Shown here: one piece after another, positions 43,733 to 50,960 of the stretch
Layout of the letters: each line of letters begins with the position of its first letter
Position numbering within the stretch: position 1 is the first letter of the stretch
Origin: Ruegeria sp. EL01
GTDB taxonomy: Bacteria > Pseudomonadota > Alphaproteobacteria > Rhodobacterales > Rhodobacteraceae
Length of the DNA stretch: 64,000 bases
Reading direction: 5' to 3'
Assembly: GCF_900313035.1 (NCBI RefSeq)
Contig: NZ_OMPS01000021.1
Coordinates: 1 to 64,000 of the forward strand
Made by a program: the position numbers and the translations under genes
The notes under the pieces: model-generated
Databases searched by the model: none
What the model saw: only the letters and a program-made list of their open reading frames with translations
Told to the model about the DNA's origin: nothing

Positions 43733-43760
43733 AATCCGGCCCCGGCTTAGGGGCCGGATT
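43733..43760 (+). terminator. hairpin downstream of thrS
   Basis: An 11-bp stem AATCCGGCCCC / GGGGCCGGATT with a 6-base loop, 22 bp after the thrS stop. It is followed by an A/T-rich stretch rather than a plain T-run. It likely separates thrS from the bufferin operon. Confidence 0.6.
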
Positions 43761-43931
43761 GAAACAATTAACAATTTTCAATTCAAAAACAATTTGTTAA
43801 CCTGCAAGAGCGCATGACGTTCTTTGACGGGCTTGTGAGACACGGGCTCGTGAATTTAACTGTGCCGTACATGCCATTACCTTTGTCACTGTCACAAGCA
43901 GACATACGCAGTCATTAAGAGGATTACCGAG

Positions 43932-44234
43932 ATGTCGAACACCGCAAAAACCCTGGTTATCGCAAGCGCCGTCGCCGCAGCCGTTTCGGGCGCCGCCACC
44001 ACAGCATCTGCACAAGCCAAAGAGAAATGCTATGGCGTTTCGCTGGCCGGTCAGAACGACTGTGCAGCAGGCCCCGGCACAACCTGCGCCGGCACCTCGA
44101 CCGTTGATTATCAGGGCAACGCATGGACTTTGGTTGATGCTGGCACCTGCGCAGATATCGAACTGCCTGCCGAAGCAAATGGCACCGCGCGCAAGGGTTC
44201 GCTGGAAGCACTGGACCGCGATCTGCCGGCATAA
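43932..44234 (+). CDS. bufA1: bufferin-type RiPP precursor (DUF2282, BufA1)
   Basis: 100 residues. The N-terminal 27 residues are a Sec signal peptide ([21 protein letters not shown]), as in all DUF2282 precursors. The core begins [15 protein letters not shown], then [14 protein letters not shown] and DAGTCADI; it holds four cysteines (residues 33, 44, 52, 73), the positions modified in bufferins to thiooxazole-type copper-binding groups. A short Asp/Glu-rich tail follows. The partner enzyme genes lie directly downstream after a hairpin. In characterised systems copper induces the operon and the product buffers copper. Confidence 0.88.
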
Positions 44235-44255
44235 GTTTCGGCCAGACATGTTTGG

Positions 44256-44286
44256 GGGGCGGGCCGTATCGCCCGCCCCTTTATTT
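44256..44286 (+). terminator. terminator-like hairpin inside the bufferin operon
   Basis: A 9-bp GC-rich stem GGGGCGGGC / GCCCGCCCC with loop CGTATC, followed by TTTTATTT. It lies 22 bp after the precursor stop and 27 bp before the start of the MNIO gene. Its position suggests partial termination that leaves precursor mRNA in excess over enzyme mRNA. Confidence 0.75.
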
Positions 44287-44305
44287 GTGATCAAGGAACT
44301 GACAA

Positions 44306-45163
44306 ATGCTGGACAATGCACTCAGGTCAAACCGTCTGCCCGCAGCACCGGGCGTTGGATACAAGCCGCAGCACTTTGCTCAGATTCTTGAACAGTCCAA
44401 GCCAGTCGAATGGCTTGAGATTCACGCAGAAAACTACATGGGTGATGGCGGTCGGCCCTTGGCGCAACTGCGCCATTTGTCAGAGCAATTCCCAATTTCA
44501 GTGCACGGTGTTGGCCTTTCCATCGGCAGCGAAGGACCGCTGGATGCCGATCATCTTGCCCGGTTGAAGCATCTGGTGGGTTGGCTGAACCCAGCCAGCT
44601 TTTCCGAACATCTGGCATGGTCCACGCATGACAGCCATTTTCTGAACGACCTTCTGCCCTTGCCCTACACGGACGCAACTTTGGCCAACATCTGCCACCA
44701 CATTGATCAGGTGCAGGAAACTGTCGGGCGGCAGATGCTGCTTGAAAACCCTTCAAGCTATCTGGCCTTTGAAGAAAGCACCTGGTCCGAGCCCGATTTC
44801 CTTCGAGAAATTGCGCGGCGCACCGGCTGCGGTCTGTTGCTGGACGTAAACAACGTATTTGTGTCGGCCACTAATCTGGATTTCTCACCGCAAGGCTATA
44901 TCGACGCCTACCCACTGGAAAAGGTCGGCGAAATCCACCTTGGTGGGCATGACGAAGATGAAGACGACCAAGGACACCCTCTGCTGATTGACAGCCATGG
45001 GCGCGAAGTTGTGGACCCGGTCTGGGCACTGCTGGACTATGTCCTTGACCGCTCGGGCCCGAAACCGGTTTTGGTCGAATGGGATACGGATGTCCCCGAT
45101 TGGCCCGTTCTACGGGACGAGGCTGTGCGCGCTCAAACAGCGTTGGAGCGGATACCGGCATGA
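44306..45163 (+). CDS. bufB: multinuclear non-heme iron oxidative enzyme (MNIO, DUF692), BufB
   Basis: 285 residues. The TIM-barrel metal-binding residues are all visible: LEIHAENYMGDGG (39-50), HGVGLSIGS (67-75), FSEHLAWS (99-106), ENPSSYL (147-153), LLDVNNVF (178-185), EIHLGGHDED (209-218), DSHG (229-232) and VEWD (257-260). MNIO enzymes hold two or three iron ions and modify cysteines in RiPP precursors; with the DUF2282 partner, heterocycle formation is expected. The next gene overlaps as ATGA. Confidence 0.93.
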   Translation: MLDNALRSNRLPAAPGVGYKPQHFAQILEQSKPVEWLEIHAENYMGDGGRPLAQLRHLSEQFPISVHGVGLSIGSEGPLDADHLARLKHLVGWLNPASFSEHLAWSTHDSHFLNDLLPLPYTDATLANICHHIDQVQETVGRQMLLENPSSYLAFEESTWSEPDFLREIARRTGCGLLLDVNNVFVSATNLDFSPQGYIDAYPLEKVGEIHLGGHDEDEDDQGHPLLIDSHGREVVDPVWALLDYVLDRSGPKPVLVEWDTDVPDWPVLRDEAVRAQTALERIPA

Positions 45164-45921
45164 GCGTATCCCAGGCAGAATTTCAGGCGGCCTTACTGGA
45201 CGCACAGGTCCCTGTCCCAAATGGCCTGACAGACGCCATGGCACAACCTGCTGGTCGCCGCTTTAGCGTATACCGCAACAATGTGGCTGTATCTTTGACC
45301 GAAGCGATGCATCAAGCCTTTCCTGTCATCACCAAGTTGCTTGGTACGCAGAATATGGATGGCCTTTCAGGGATCTTCCTGCGTCAGCACCCGCCGTCGT
45401 CGCCCCTGATGATGTTCTACGGCGAAGAATTTCCGAATTTTCTGGCCGACATGCCCCAGCTGTCACATCTGGGATACCTGCCCGACGTCGCCCGGTTAGA
45501 GCTGGCATTGCGGCACTCTTACCATGCCGCCGACAGTCAGGCCGCACCAGAGGATGCACTGGCCGTGTCGCCCGAGGCGGTCATGCAAGCCCGGCTGACC
45601 TTCGCACCGTCGATGCAGATTGTTCGCTCGGACTGGCCGATTTTCGCGATCTGGCGGCTCAACACCGAAGCAGACGCGCCAAAACCCGAGGCCCAGGCCC
45701 AGGATGTTCTGATTACGCGGCCCGAATACGACCCAATCCCGCAGGCCCTGCCATCAGGCGGAGCGGCTTGGATTGAACGCCTTCAAAATGGCGAAACTAT
45801 TGGCGGCGCGTTTGAAAAAACCGCTGCAGAAACACCCGAATTTGACCTTGGCACCACTTTGGCACTGCTTTTGCAGGGCGGTGCGCTAACTTCTGTGACT
45901 ATCGAAAGGCTGGAGATATGA
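45160..45921 (+). CDS. bufC: DUF2063 (HvfC/BufC family) recognition partner of MNIO
   Basis: 253 residues from the ATG at 45160, overlapping the MNIO stop. The N-terminal DUF2063 part carries FSVYRNNVAVSLTEAMHQAF and LRQHPPSSPLMMFYGEEF; LGYLPDVARLELALRHSYHA follows, all typical of BufC/HvfC. This partner is thought to present the precursor to the MNIO enzyme. The C-terminal half is more variable. It overlaps the DoxX gene start by four bases (ATGA), so the last three genes are translationally coupled. Confidence 0.9.
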   Translation: MSVSQAEFQAALLDAQVPVPNGLTDAMAQPAGRRFSVYRNNVAVSLTEAMHQAFPVITKLLGTQNMDGLSGIFLRQHPPSSPLMMFYGEEFPNFLADMPQLSHLGYLPDVARLELALRHSYHAADSQAAPEDALAVSPEAVMQARLTFAPSMQIVRSDWPIFAIWRLNTEADAPKPEAQAQDVLITRPEYDPIPQALPSGGAAWIERLQNGETIGGAFEKTAAETPEFDLGTTLALLLQGGALTSVTIERLEI

Positions 45922-46436
45922 CTGCCCTGATCTCACTTCACAACAACGTTCTGGGAAAGGTGGACCACACGTCCAGCTGGCTAACCCCCACGCTTGCACG
46001 GCTGGTGTTTGTCGCCGTCTTGCTGATCTATTACTGGAATTCGGCCATGCTAAAGATCGACGGTTCGATCTTTTCGCCTTCTGCCGGTGCATTTGGCCAG
46101 ATCTTTCCAAAAGCGGCCGAGGCGGTGCTGTACGATGTTACGCAGATGACCCTGTTCCAGCGTGTCGTCATCTTCTTTGGCACCGTTGCGGAATTTGTTC
46201 TGCCCGCCCTACTGCTGGTGGGCTTGTTCACTCGATTGGCAGCCCTCGGGTTGATCGTGTTTGTCTGGGTACAAACATTTGTCGACGTCACCGGCCATGG
46301 CGTGAAGCTGGGCGGTCTGTTTGATGCAGCGCCGTCGATTATGGACCAACGAACTTTGTGGACGTTCTTGTTGCTGATCATCGTGATCAATGGCGCAGGC
46401 CCACTGTCGCTGGACCGGATCCTGCGCCTTAAGTAA
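45918..46436 (+). CDS. DoxX family membrane protein of the bufferin operon
   Basis: 172 residues with four predicted transmembrane helices (LARLVFVAVLLIYYWNSAM, VVIFFGTVAEFVLPALLLVG, LAALGLIVFVWVQTFVDVTG, LWTFLLLIIVINGAGPL). The family is DoxX/SURF4-like. Such genes often close bufferin operons; a role in export or redox support is suspected, not proven. Overlap with bufC as ATGA supports co-expression. Confidence 0.85.
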   Translation: MTALISLHNNVLGKVDHTSSWLTPTLARLVFVAVLLIYYWNSAMLKIDGSIFSPSAGAFGQIFPKAAEAVLYDVTQMTLFQRVVIFFGTVAEFVLPALLLVGLFTRLAALGLIVFVWVQTFVDVTGHGVKLGGLFDAAPSIMDQRTLWTFLLLIIVINGAGPLSLDRILRLK

Positions 46437-46437
46437 T

Positions 46438-46806
46438 TTAGAAATGCGCCTTGGGCTCGTCCGGTTTTCCCGCGGCCAGCCCAAGGACACCGGCGACGCC
46501 GGCAAAGGCAATTGGGAACATCGTGAAGACACCAAAACCAAACGCGTAGTACATCCCTGCTGCGGACAACAACAACAAGATGCCCGCGATCAAAGCGCGG
46601 GCATGGGCCATAGCGCCACCCACAATTGCCAAAAGCGGTGCAATGATCGAAGCGGCCTGGATTAAATCCGGATTTTCGACCTGCTCCGCGACCCCCTCGA
46701 TATCGCCGAAATGGTTGATCACTTCGACATACCCATATCCAAAGAAGCCGACGATCATGCCGATCAAACCGGAAATGACGCCCAAAATCATGGCAGCGTT
46801 ACGCAT
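46438..46806 (-). CDS. small multipass membrane protein, hypothetical
   Basis: 122 residues with about four hydrophobic segments (MILGVISGLIGMIVGFFGYG, IIAPLLAIVGGAMAHARALI, AGILLLLSAAGMYYAFGFG, FPIAFAGVAGVLGLAAG). GAGGA lies seven bases before the ATG at 46806. I do not recognise a characterised family, though similar small proteins are common in bacteria. It is convergent with the DoxX gene with one base between stops. Confidence 0.7.
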   Translation of the reverse strand: MRNAAMILGVISGLIGMIVGFFGYGYVEVINHFGDIEGVAEQVENPDLIQAASIIAPLLAIVGGAMAHARALIAGILLLLSAAGMYYAFGFGVFTMFPIAFAGVAGVLGLAAGKPDEPKAHF

Positions 46807-49123: not shown

Positions 49124-49552
49124 ATGGGGCTGACATATCTTCACACCATGGTCCGCGTGAAAGATCTGGAGAAATCCATGGCGTTTTATGAACTGCTCGG
49201 ATTGAAGGAGATACGCAGGTATGACAGCGAAGCCGGACGCTTTTCGCTGATTTTCCTGGCGCCTCCGGGTCAGGAAGAAGCACCGATCGAACTGACCTAC
49301 AACTGGGATGGTGACGACGAATTGCCAAGCGATAGCCGTCATTTTGGTCACCTCGCTTATGGCGTCGACAATATCTACGAGGCCTGTCAGCACCTTCAGG
49401 ACAACGGGGTTGAAATCAACCGTCCTCCGCGTGATGGACGAATGGCTTTTGTGCGATCTCCCGACAACATCTCGGTCGAATTGCTGCAAATTGGTGAGGC
49501 GCTGGCCCCAGCTGAACCCTGGAGCAGCATGGAAAACATCGGCCACTGGTGA
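49124..49552 (+). CDS. gloA: lactoylglutathione lyase (glyoxalase I)
   Basis: 142 residues. The first metal-site half TYLHTMVRVKDLEKSMAFYE and the later half FGHLAYGVDNIYEACQHLQD carry the His and Glu ligands of GloA; GMAFVRSP-like DGRMAFVRSPDNISVELLQIG ends the module. The enzyme detoxifies methylglyoxal-glutathione hemithioacetal. AAAGGAAAG precedes the ATG. The GTG start of the next gene overlaps its stop, so the DUF1194 pair is probably co-translated. Confidence 0.92.
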   Translation: MGLTYLHTMVRVKDLEKSMAFYELLGLKEIRRYDSEAGRFSLIFLAPPGQEEAPIELTYNWDGDDELPSDSRHFGHLAYGVDNIYEACQHLQDNGVEINRPPRDGRMAFVRSPDNISVELLQIGEALAPAEPWSSMENIGHW

Positions 49553-50250
49553 TCCGTCAATTGATAGCATTGGGGTTGGCCGCTTTGGCCAATCCGGTTC
49601 AGGCAGAGCCCTGTCGTCTGGCGCTGGCGCTCGCGCTGGATATATCGGTATCGGTCGACGAGTTCGAAGATACCCTGCAAAGACAAGGGCTTGCCGCAGC
49701 CCTGATCGCACCCGAAGTTCAGGAAGCTTTTTTTGCGTCGCCCATGCCTGTTGCGTTAGCGGTTTACGAATGGGGCGGGCGATCGAACCAGCATGTGATT
49801 CTGGATTGGCTGTTGATCGACGATGTAGGCGACCTGCTGGCCGCCTCGTCCCGGATAAGTCAGTCTGCCCGGTCCGATATCGGCTCTGCCACCGCTATGG
49901 GATATGCATTGGCCTTTGGCGCAACACTGATGCAAAAAGCGCCAGAGTGTCTGTTTCAAACTATCGATCTGTCTGGTGACGGCTCGAATAATGATGGGTA
50001 CGGCCCTCAGATCGCCTATCGGCATTTTCCTTTTGAAAACACTGTGGTCAACGGCTTGGTGATCAACGCCGCAGATTTCGAAGGCGAACTGTTTTTGATC
50101 CCGTTCTTTGAAAACAATGTTCTGCACGGCCCCGGCGCGTTTCTGGAAGTGGCGCAAGGGTTCGAAGACTTTGAGCGCGCCATGCGCAAGAAATTGGAGC
50201 GGGAACTGAAAGGACTGCAAATAGGCGCATTGCAAGGCGCTGACCCATGA
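49549..50250 (+). CDS. DUF1194 domain-containing secreted VWA-like protein, copy 1
   Basis: 233 residues from a GTG start that overlaps the gloA stop as GTGA. A signal peptide (IRQLIALGLAALANPVQA) precedes EPCRLALALALDISVSVDEFED, whose DISVSVD matches the DxSxS metal-ion-dependent adhesion site of von Willebrand factor A domains. IDLSGDGSNNDGYG carries the second conserved Asp. DUF1194 proteins are common in alphaproteobacteria with no known role. A second copy follows and overlaps. Confidence 0.85.
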   Translation: MIRQLIALGLAALANPVQAEPCRLALALALDISVSVDEFEDTLQRQGLAAALIAPEVQEAFFASPMPVALAVYEWGGRSNQHVILDWLLIDDVGDLLAASSRISQSARSDIGSATAMGYALAFGATLMQKAPECLFQTIDLSGDGSNNDGYGPQIAYRHFPFENTVVNGLVINAADFEGELFLIPFFENNVLHGPGAFLEVAQGFEDFERAMRKKLERELKGLQIGALQGADP

Positions 50251-50960
50251 CAGCCCGGGTTCTGGCCGTGTTGCTAAGCCTGCTGGCCGGGGCGGCTTCG
50301 GCCCAATGCCGTCAGGCCCTGGCATTGGGGCTGGATGTTTCCGGGTCCGTAGACAGCCGCGAGTATAGATTACAGATAGGTGGCCTGGCTGCGGCGCTGC
50401 GCCGTCCCGAAGTTAGTCAGTTGATCCTGTCGAACAGCGCTGCTTCGATACGGCTTGCGATCTTTGAATGGAGCGAACCCGGCCATCACAGAATGCTGTT
50501 GGATTGGAGAGACATTCGCTCGATCTCCGATCTGGAGCAAGTCAGTGCGAAGCTCCGTGCGGTTGCCCGGAGCTCTGCGCCACAAGGCACAGCCGTTGGA
50601 TCAGCCATGCAGTTCGGCGCGGGGCTGTTGGCGCAACAACAAGTTTGCTGGAAACGTACGTTGGATTTGTCGGGTGATGGGAAGCATAACCTCGGGCCGC
50701 ATCCTCGTGACGTGAAATCTGCCTTGCTTGCGTCTGGCATCACCATCAATGGTCTGGTGATCGGCGCAGATGATCCCAGTCACGGTGACAAGCGGTATGT
50801 TCAGATCGGCGAACTGTCCGCTTACTACAACAGCTGGGTCATCCTGGGGCAAAATGCGTTCGTCGAAGTCGCGCTGGGCTTTGAGGCCTATGAGGACGCC
50901 ATGACCCGCAAACTCATCCGGGAACTGGAAGGGCTGGTACTGTCAGATGCGCGCCCCTGA
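50247..50960 (+). CDS. DUF1194 domain-containing secreted VWA-like protein, copy 2
   Basis: 237 residues starting inside the stop of copy 1 (ATGA). The signal peptide (TARVLAVLLSLLAGAASA) is followed by CRQALALGLDVSGSVDSREY, again a DxSxS motif, and TLDLSGDGKHNLGPHPRDV. The order of motifs is the same as in copy 1, but they differ in sequence, so the duplication is old. The convergent MarR gene ends at the next base. Confidence 0.85.
   Translation: MTARVLAVLLSLLAGAASAQCRQALALGLDVSGSVDSREYRLQIGGLAAALRRPEVSQLILSNSAASIRLAIFEWSEPGHHRMLLDWRDIRSISDLEQVSAKLRAVARSSAPQGTAVGSAMQFGAGLLAQQQVCWKRTLDLSGDGKHNLGPHPRDVKSALLASGITINGLVIGADDPSHGDKRYVQIGELSAYYNSWVILGQNAFVEVALGFEAYEDAMTRKLIRELEGLVLSDARP

Follow-up and report, generated by a model that had tools for sequence, protein, structure and literature searches.

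Bufferins form a very large family of ribosomally synthesised and post-translationally modified peptides (RiPPs) that was described only recently, and the literature consulted says little on how they are controlled beyond a few models. The DUF2282 operons of Caulobacter are under the extracytoplasmic function (ECF) factor SigF, which is held by NrsF and has the site GTAACC-N16-CGAA (PMC3511200), and these operons are copper-induced (PMC8224329). Buf1 clusters have likewise been reported together with sigma factor and NrsF genes (PMC12452194). Here we analysed a bufferin operon, bufABCD, found in 64,000 nucleotides of DNA from Ruegeria sp. EL01 (contig NZ_OMPS01000021.1, positions 1 to 64,000; this whole stretch is called the window). 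We are highly confident that the locus is a complete and ordinary Buf1-type bufferin operon, one more predicted member of a known family. Further, from sequence comparison we cautiously favour the view that in roseobacters the operon is no longer under SigF-NrsF, and that a dedicated, undescribed regulator would bind a tandem dyad at about -42/-57 which is present once per genome.

Open reading frame (ORF) calls place the four genes on the plus strand at 43932-46436 of the window, and all of them scored above the cut-offs of their Pfam families.

43932-44234, plus strand: bufA, predicted DUF2282 bufferin precursor of 100 residues (PF10048, 86.2 bits against a cut-off of 22.4), judged also by its cysteine spacing, its tail and its conservation in 55 sequences
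44306-45163, plus strand: bufB, predicted multinuclear iron oxidase (MNIO) and bufferin maturase of 285 residues (MbnB_TglH_ChrH, 348.9 bits against 25; NCBIfam equivalog MNIO_BufB, NF050167, 378.2 bits against 310), with invariant ligand positions
45160-45921, plus strand: bufC, predicted partner protein of 253 residues with DUF2063 (PF09836, 82.8 bits against 27.2) and a winged-helix, RRE-type domain, judged also by AlphaFold2 and Foldseek
45918-46436, plus strand: bufD, predicted DoxX-family membrane protein of 172 residues (PF07681, 26.7 bits against 23.6), with relatives in 80 of 80 named loci

The named loci are the best 80 matches, 79 of which came with upstream DNA and were used for the promoter work. 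All 80 have the gene order bufABCD. In NCBIfam, bufB stayed under the cut-offs of the HvfB, ApyH, MbnB and ChrH models, bufC under that of HvfC (51 against 142) and bufD under that of HvfX. The original prediction, made from the letters of the window, had proposed a complete bufferin-type operon with a four-cysteine precursor, an MNIO with all metal ligands intact, a DUF2063 partner, a DoxX membrane protein and ATGA overlaps among the last three genes. The present results are in accordance with each of these points: the overlapping start and stop codons are found at the bufB/bufC and bufC/bufD junctions, the Pfam scores support the partner and the membrane protein, and the completeness of the operon is substantiated by the MNIO_BufB score, the conserved gene order and the ligands, cysteine pattern and partner fold described below.

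The cysteines of the DUF2282 protein BufA lie at positions 33, 44, 52 and 73, giving a 10-7-20 spacing that recurs in 80/80 named loci. Among 70 sequences from further genomes (window included, the genomes partly overlapping the named set) 63 show the same spacing; three have 10-8-20, one has 10-6-20 and three carry an extra N-terminal cysteine. The N terminus resembles a Sec signal, with K6, a run of hydrophobic residues and an A-S-A ahead of Q28, and cleavage would follow A27; both K6 and A27 are invariant in 55 sequences. A sequence search of the PDB gave no match for either bufA or bufC.

For BufB we read the ligand positions from an alignment with 3BWW, TglH and MbnB, the MbnB stretch of which begins after H67. 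H67, H102, E147, D180, N183, H211, D229, H231 and E258 align with positions conserved in the family, and these nine along with D260 are invariant in 35 aligned BufB sequences, hence no loss of ligands was seen on alignment. The conserved positions other than N183, D229 and H231 we take to be the ligands of metal sites 1 and 2. The three named residues match by motif N175, D242 and H244 of HvfB, given as site-3 residues in PMC13419390. The AlphaFold2 model of BufC, built from 50 sequences, has a mean pLDDT (predicted local distance difference test) of 93.6, and Foldseek returned three PDB chains at E of 0.001 or less: TglI 8hi7_A (E 4.7e-07), TglI 8hci_A and NGO1945 3dee (E 3.3e-05). TglI is the partner of the MNIO TglH, and both TglI and NGO1945 serve as reference structures for MNIO partner proteins (PMC12452194). 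By its modelled fold BufC is a predicted PME type 1 partner, consisting of a DUF2063 domain and an RRE-type domain.

Upstream of bufA the following elements were found.

43824-43856, plus strand: candidate tandem-dyad operator of 33 bases, conserved in 35 Ruegeria-level upstream regions
43825-43838, plus strand: dyad 1, TGAC-N6-GTGA
43840-43853, plus strand: dyad 2, ACAC-N6-GTGA
43877-43883, plus strand: -10-like element TTACCTT (pattern YTANNNT), recognised by its spacing from the operator

The two dyads are 15 bases apart, and across the roseobacter lineage the operator can be written as TGAC-N6-GTGA, one base, NCAC-N6-GTGA. With one mismatch allowed, the tandem-dyad pattern gave one match per genome, an exact one, in 54/54 Ruegeria genomes and none in the reversed control. 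A stricter pattern for the tandem, with up to 3 mismatches, returned a single hit in the own genome, and a looser one gave 6 hits where the reversed control gave 7, two of the six being the buf site read on both strands. The operator matrix scored at least 14.1 in all 79 roseobacter loci used for its training, while the maximum in 1400 simulated regions was 9.1.

A YTANNNT element begins 19-21 bases past the operator in 68/79 loci (18-23 bases were searched), as compared with 4.7% of shuffles; a consensus scan found no sigma-70 promoter upstream of bufA. A transcription start about 6 bases past the hexamer would put the centre of dyad 2 near -42 and that of dyad 1 near -57, positions that would suit an activator touching the -35 region. 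On the other hand, dyads are also typical of dimeric repressors, and CACG-GGCT-CGTG could pair as RNA, so that the tandem dyad might bind a repressor, or be transcribed as an RNA element, instead of serving an activator. The near-fixed distance of the -10-like element places the dyads upstream of the transcription start, and an Rfam search with E up to 0.5 gave no element at the dyads, only one chance-level hit. We regard the repressor or RNA alternative as possible, though doubtful. Between thrS and the operator there is also a G+C-rich and perfect-looking inverted repeat (43734-43759), the position of which is kept in the Ruegeria-level alignment; it is probably the end of the thrS transcript.

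SigF-type control is unsupported for the own genome, which gave no match to NrsF, the one protein of the pair searched for. The control search did detect NrsF in Caulobacter. The best GTAACC-N16-CGAA site upstream of bufA carries 2 mismatches and lies at -225, at the end of thrS. NrsF was detected in 18 of 148 genomes (17 over the cut-off), none of them Ruegeria. To compare the two kinds of control we used 35 non-Ruegeria loci, namely 25 from genera of the same family and 10 from genomes of other families, and counted the operator as present when its score exceeded the null maximum. The operator alone was present in 14 loci, NrsF alone in 9, neither in 12 and both in none. It should be noted that the Fisher p-values, 0.005 over the 35 loci and 0.009 within the family (14/0/6/5), serve for description only: the genomes compared are related to each other, and the operator matrix is not independent of the test. 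Upstream of bufA in the nine NrsF-bearing loci, GTAACC-N16-CGAA was found with at most 2 mismatches in seven and at most 1 in six, and in eight of the nine, all but G128, NrsF and bufA share a contig and are at most 4 kb apart.

Several points weigh against a loss of SigF-NrsF control in favour of the tandem dyad, and against our reading of the precursor. The search of the own genome covered one protein of the pair, NrsF. Some of the loci tested are related to the roseobacter loci that served to train the operator matrix, and since 12/35 loci have neither operator nor NrsF, these two are not the only modes of control. GTAACC-N16-CGAA with at most 2 mismatches is present in 20/79 roseobacter upstream regions against 7/79 shuffled ones; 17 of these 20 matches lie at -198 or further, where thrS ends, and the other three at -135, -92 and -70. 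One third of the case for the promoter depends on a transcription start that was inferred. As for BufA, its signal peptide was assigned by eye, and the AlphaFold2 model is too poor for use (mean pLDDT 53.7). Six genera of the family (L055, L059, L060, L061, L066 and L069) have bufA with neither NrsF nor an above-null tandem dyad, and may use a third mode of control or an operator that has diverged.

The literature searches showed no description of a roseobacter bufferin regulator or a tandem-dyad element, the founding bufferin paper lying outside its coverage. Nothing was found in it that links DUF2282 with Ruegeria, or DUF692 with Roseobacter and copper, and the part of PMC10141476 available to us does not treat the operon.

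The spacer between bufA and bufB contains one further element.

44254-44281, plus strand: G+C-rich hairpin followed by T-rich DNA, terminator-like, in the bufA-bufB spacer

Folding of the spacer gives -32.3 kcal/mol (z -4.32). Stems with 8 or more pairs, 6 or more of them G-C, were found in 77/81 loci, varying among genera, against 17/800 shuffles; the loci failing this test were L099, L134, L138 and L141. Covariation in the MAFFT alignment is weak, with two-sided change in 1/7 pairs, and the claim of a hairpin therefore rests on the per-sequence stem test. The T-rich stretch past the hairpin is present in the window and seems, by eye, to be missing in some genera. The hairpin is likely a partial terminator or a 3' stabiliser that holds the precursor mRNA above the enzyme mRNA.

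The acidic tail that the original prediction regarded as this precursor's own and unusual turned out to be neither peculiar nor strongly acidic. The motif R-x-G-[SA]-L-x4-R-D-[LIV]-P occurs in 80/80 named roseobacter loci and in 35/35 Ruegeria-level sequences, which rules out a feature peculiar to this BufA, and the 27 residues past the last cysteine hold 6 D/E and 3 K/R, a mildly acidic composition only. Outside Ruegeria the motif is found in 22/25 other genera of the family (absent from L003, L004 and L057) and in 0/10 loci of other families. In 55 sequences R87, G89, S90, L91, R96, D97 and P99 show no variation.

By analogy with relatives, in which the modification, the disulfide and the copper role are documented (PMC12452194, PMC13097082), we infer that BufA would carry thiooxazoles, bind copper and act in copper buffering. 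The original prediction gave copper buffering as the role of the system; for this locus that role is an expectation drawn from characterised relatives. In the cytoplasm, the signal peptide serving as leader, BufBC would bind the precursor and oxidise the central cysteines 44 and 52 to 5-thiooxazoles, while cysteines 33 and 73 would pair as a disulfide. Sec would then export the peptide, and the thiooxazoles would hold excess copper in the periplasm. On the present comparison, transcription would begin at the -10-like element just downstream of the tandem-dyad operator, replacing the SigF-NrsF control of Caulobacter, and the hairpin past bufA would favour precursor over enzyme.

The main role might instead be in another stress (gold, cadmium, chromate, sulfur or oxidative), with copper secondary. 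Chromate and cadmium elicit a response from the DUF2282 operons in Caulobacter (PMC3511200), the Legionella GIG operon is responsive to gold in addition to copper (PMC5413113), other metals are discussed for bufferins (PMC12452194), and the regulator here differs from that of Caulobacter. However, loss of sigF in Caulobacter is reported to impair growth with copper while the chromate and cadmium profile stays similar to wild type (PMC8224329), and we consider a primary role outside copper unlikely. A copper-acquisition system resembling methanobactin is very improbable: the MbnB model TIGR04159, of the same enzyme superfamily, does match bufB, but at 53.9 bits, far under its cut-off of 325, whereas the BufB model passed; moreover the precursor is a DUF2282 protein and the partner is nearer to DUF2063 and TglI/NGO1945 than to MbnC. 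That the operon is decayed and its precursor no longer modified is hardly credible, as no supporting point was found and conservation holds for the ligands, the cysteines, the overlaps, the operator and the hairpin alike.

The closest locus among the matches listed belongs to an uncultured Ruegeria (97% in BufB), followed by mostly named Ruegeria. The own genome has one MNIO match and one DUF2282 match. DUF2282 was matched in 53/54 Ruegeria genomes (own included), in 25/37 other genera of the family and in 10/21 genomes of other families. In the remaining Ruegeria genome, G049, loss of bufA could be ruled out, as a run of N cuts the gene off past residue 33; this genome retains the operator, bufC residues 73-252 and bufD. 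Counting it, the operon is present in 54/54 Ruegeria genomes. L069 (G060) has tandem precursors, two DUF2282 matches 343 bases apart before one MNIO.

As to a regulator gene next door, the neighbours in the window are thrS, an ORF of 122 residues without match and an ORF of the ArsC family. The upstream ORF is threonyl-tRNA synthetase, thrS, by Pfam; thrS was found in 79/80 named loci, and in 77 it lies on the same strand and ends within 600 bases upstream of bufA. An ArsC-family relative stands on the opposite strand within 1500 bases after bufD in 72/80 named loci. We regard the operon, as compared across these genomes, as chromosomal, inherited and core to Ruegeria, and not as an island.

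The 122-residue ORF (46438-46806, minus strand) is convergent with bufD and has no Pfam or NCBIfam match; relatives are present in 62/80 named loci, in 51 of them on the opposite strand within 1500 bases after bufD. Two kinds of bufD occur among the Ruegeria loci L073-L100, the short-loop kind of the window in 15/28 and another kind in 13/28, and the short-loop kind is also found in 7 named loci beyond these. The second kind is just 54-70% identical while the adjoining bufB stays at 85% or more, a contrast that points to an exchange of alleles confined to the DoxX gene. Further along the window, two adjacent and overlapping DUF1194 genes (49549-50250 and 50247-50960) are 41.5% identical over 212 residues, and we read this pair as having arisen by tandem duplication within an uncharacterised family.

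By itself the operon is one predicted member more among thousands. A specialist might be more surprised by the proposed replacement of the SigF-NrsF switch with an element found once per genome. If this holds true, the roseobacter operon would, along with its clade-specific tail, be a bufferin variant that has been re-wired and has a metal sensor of its own, and the sharp footprint, lying as it does in an operon that is core to common bacteria of the sea, could serve as bait for a new sensor of copper or another metal.

Among the described systems close to the locus is bufferin 1 of Caulobacter vibrioides (CC3254-CC3257), which at the domain level has DUF2282, DUF692, DUF2063 and DoxX in the same order (PMC3511200) and a precursor family with four cysteines (PMC12452194). 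The difference lies in control: Caulobacter is described with SigF-NrsF and GTAACC-N16-CGAA, while the Ruegeria genome gave no NrsF match and has the tandem dyad instead. An MNIO with a PME1 partner is shared with the captophorins, the 5-thiooxazole RiPPs fontiphorin, oxazolin and gonophorin; DUF2282 is given as one of the three precursor groups of this class (PMC13097082), and the precursor here belongs to that group, unlike the named captophorins with their EGKCG repeats. The mmr cluster (bulbicupramide), which the marine genus Microbulbifer has conserved, likewise belongs to the MNIO/DUF2063 copper RiPPs, but its precursor has di-cysteine cassettes, and MmrA-C are reported as undetected in the Microbulbifer proteome with or without added copper (PMC12538549). 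Finally, the GIG operons of Cupriavidus and Legionella share the four-gene DUF2282/MNIO layout and are copper- and gold-induced; those of Legionella are described in several copies, partly mobile (PMC5413113), whereas the Ruegeria genome holds one MNIO and one DUF2282 gene.

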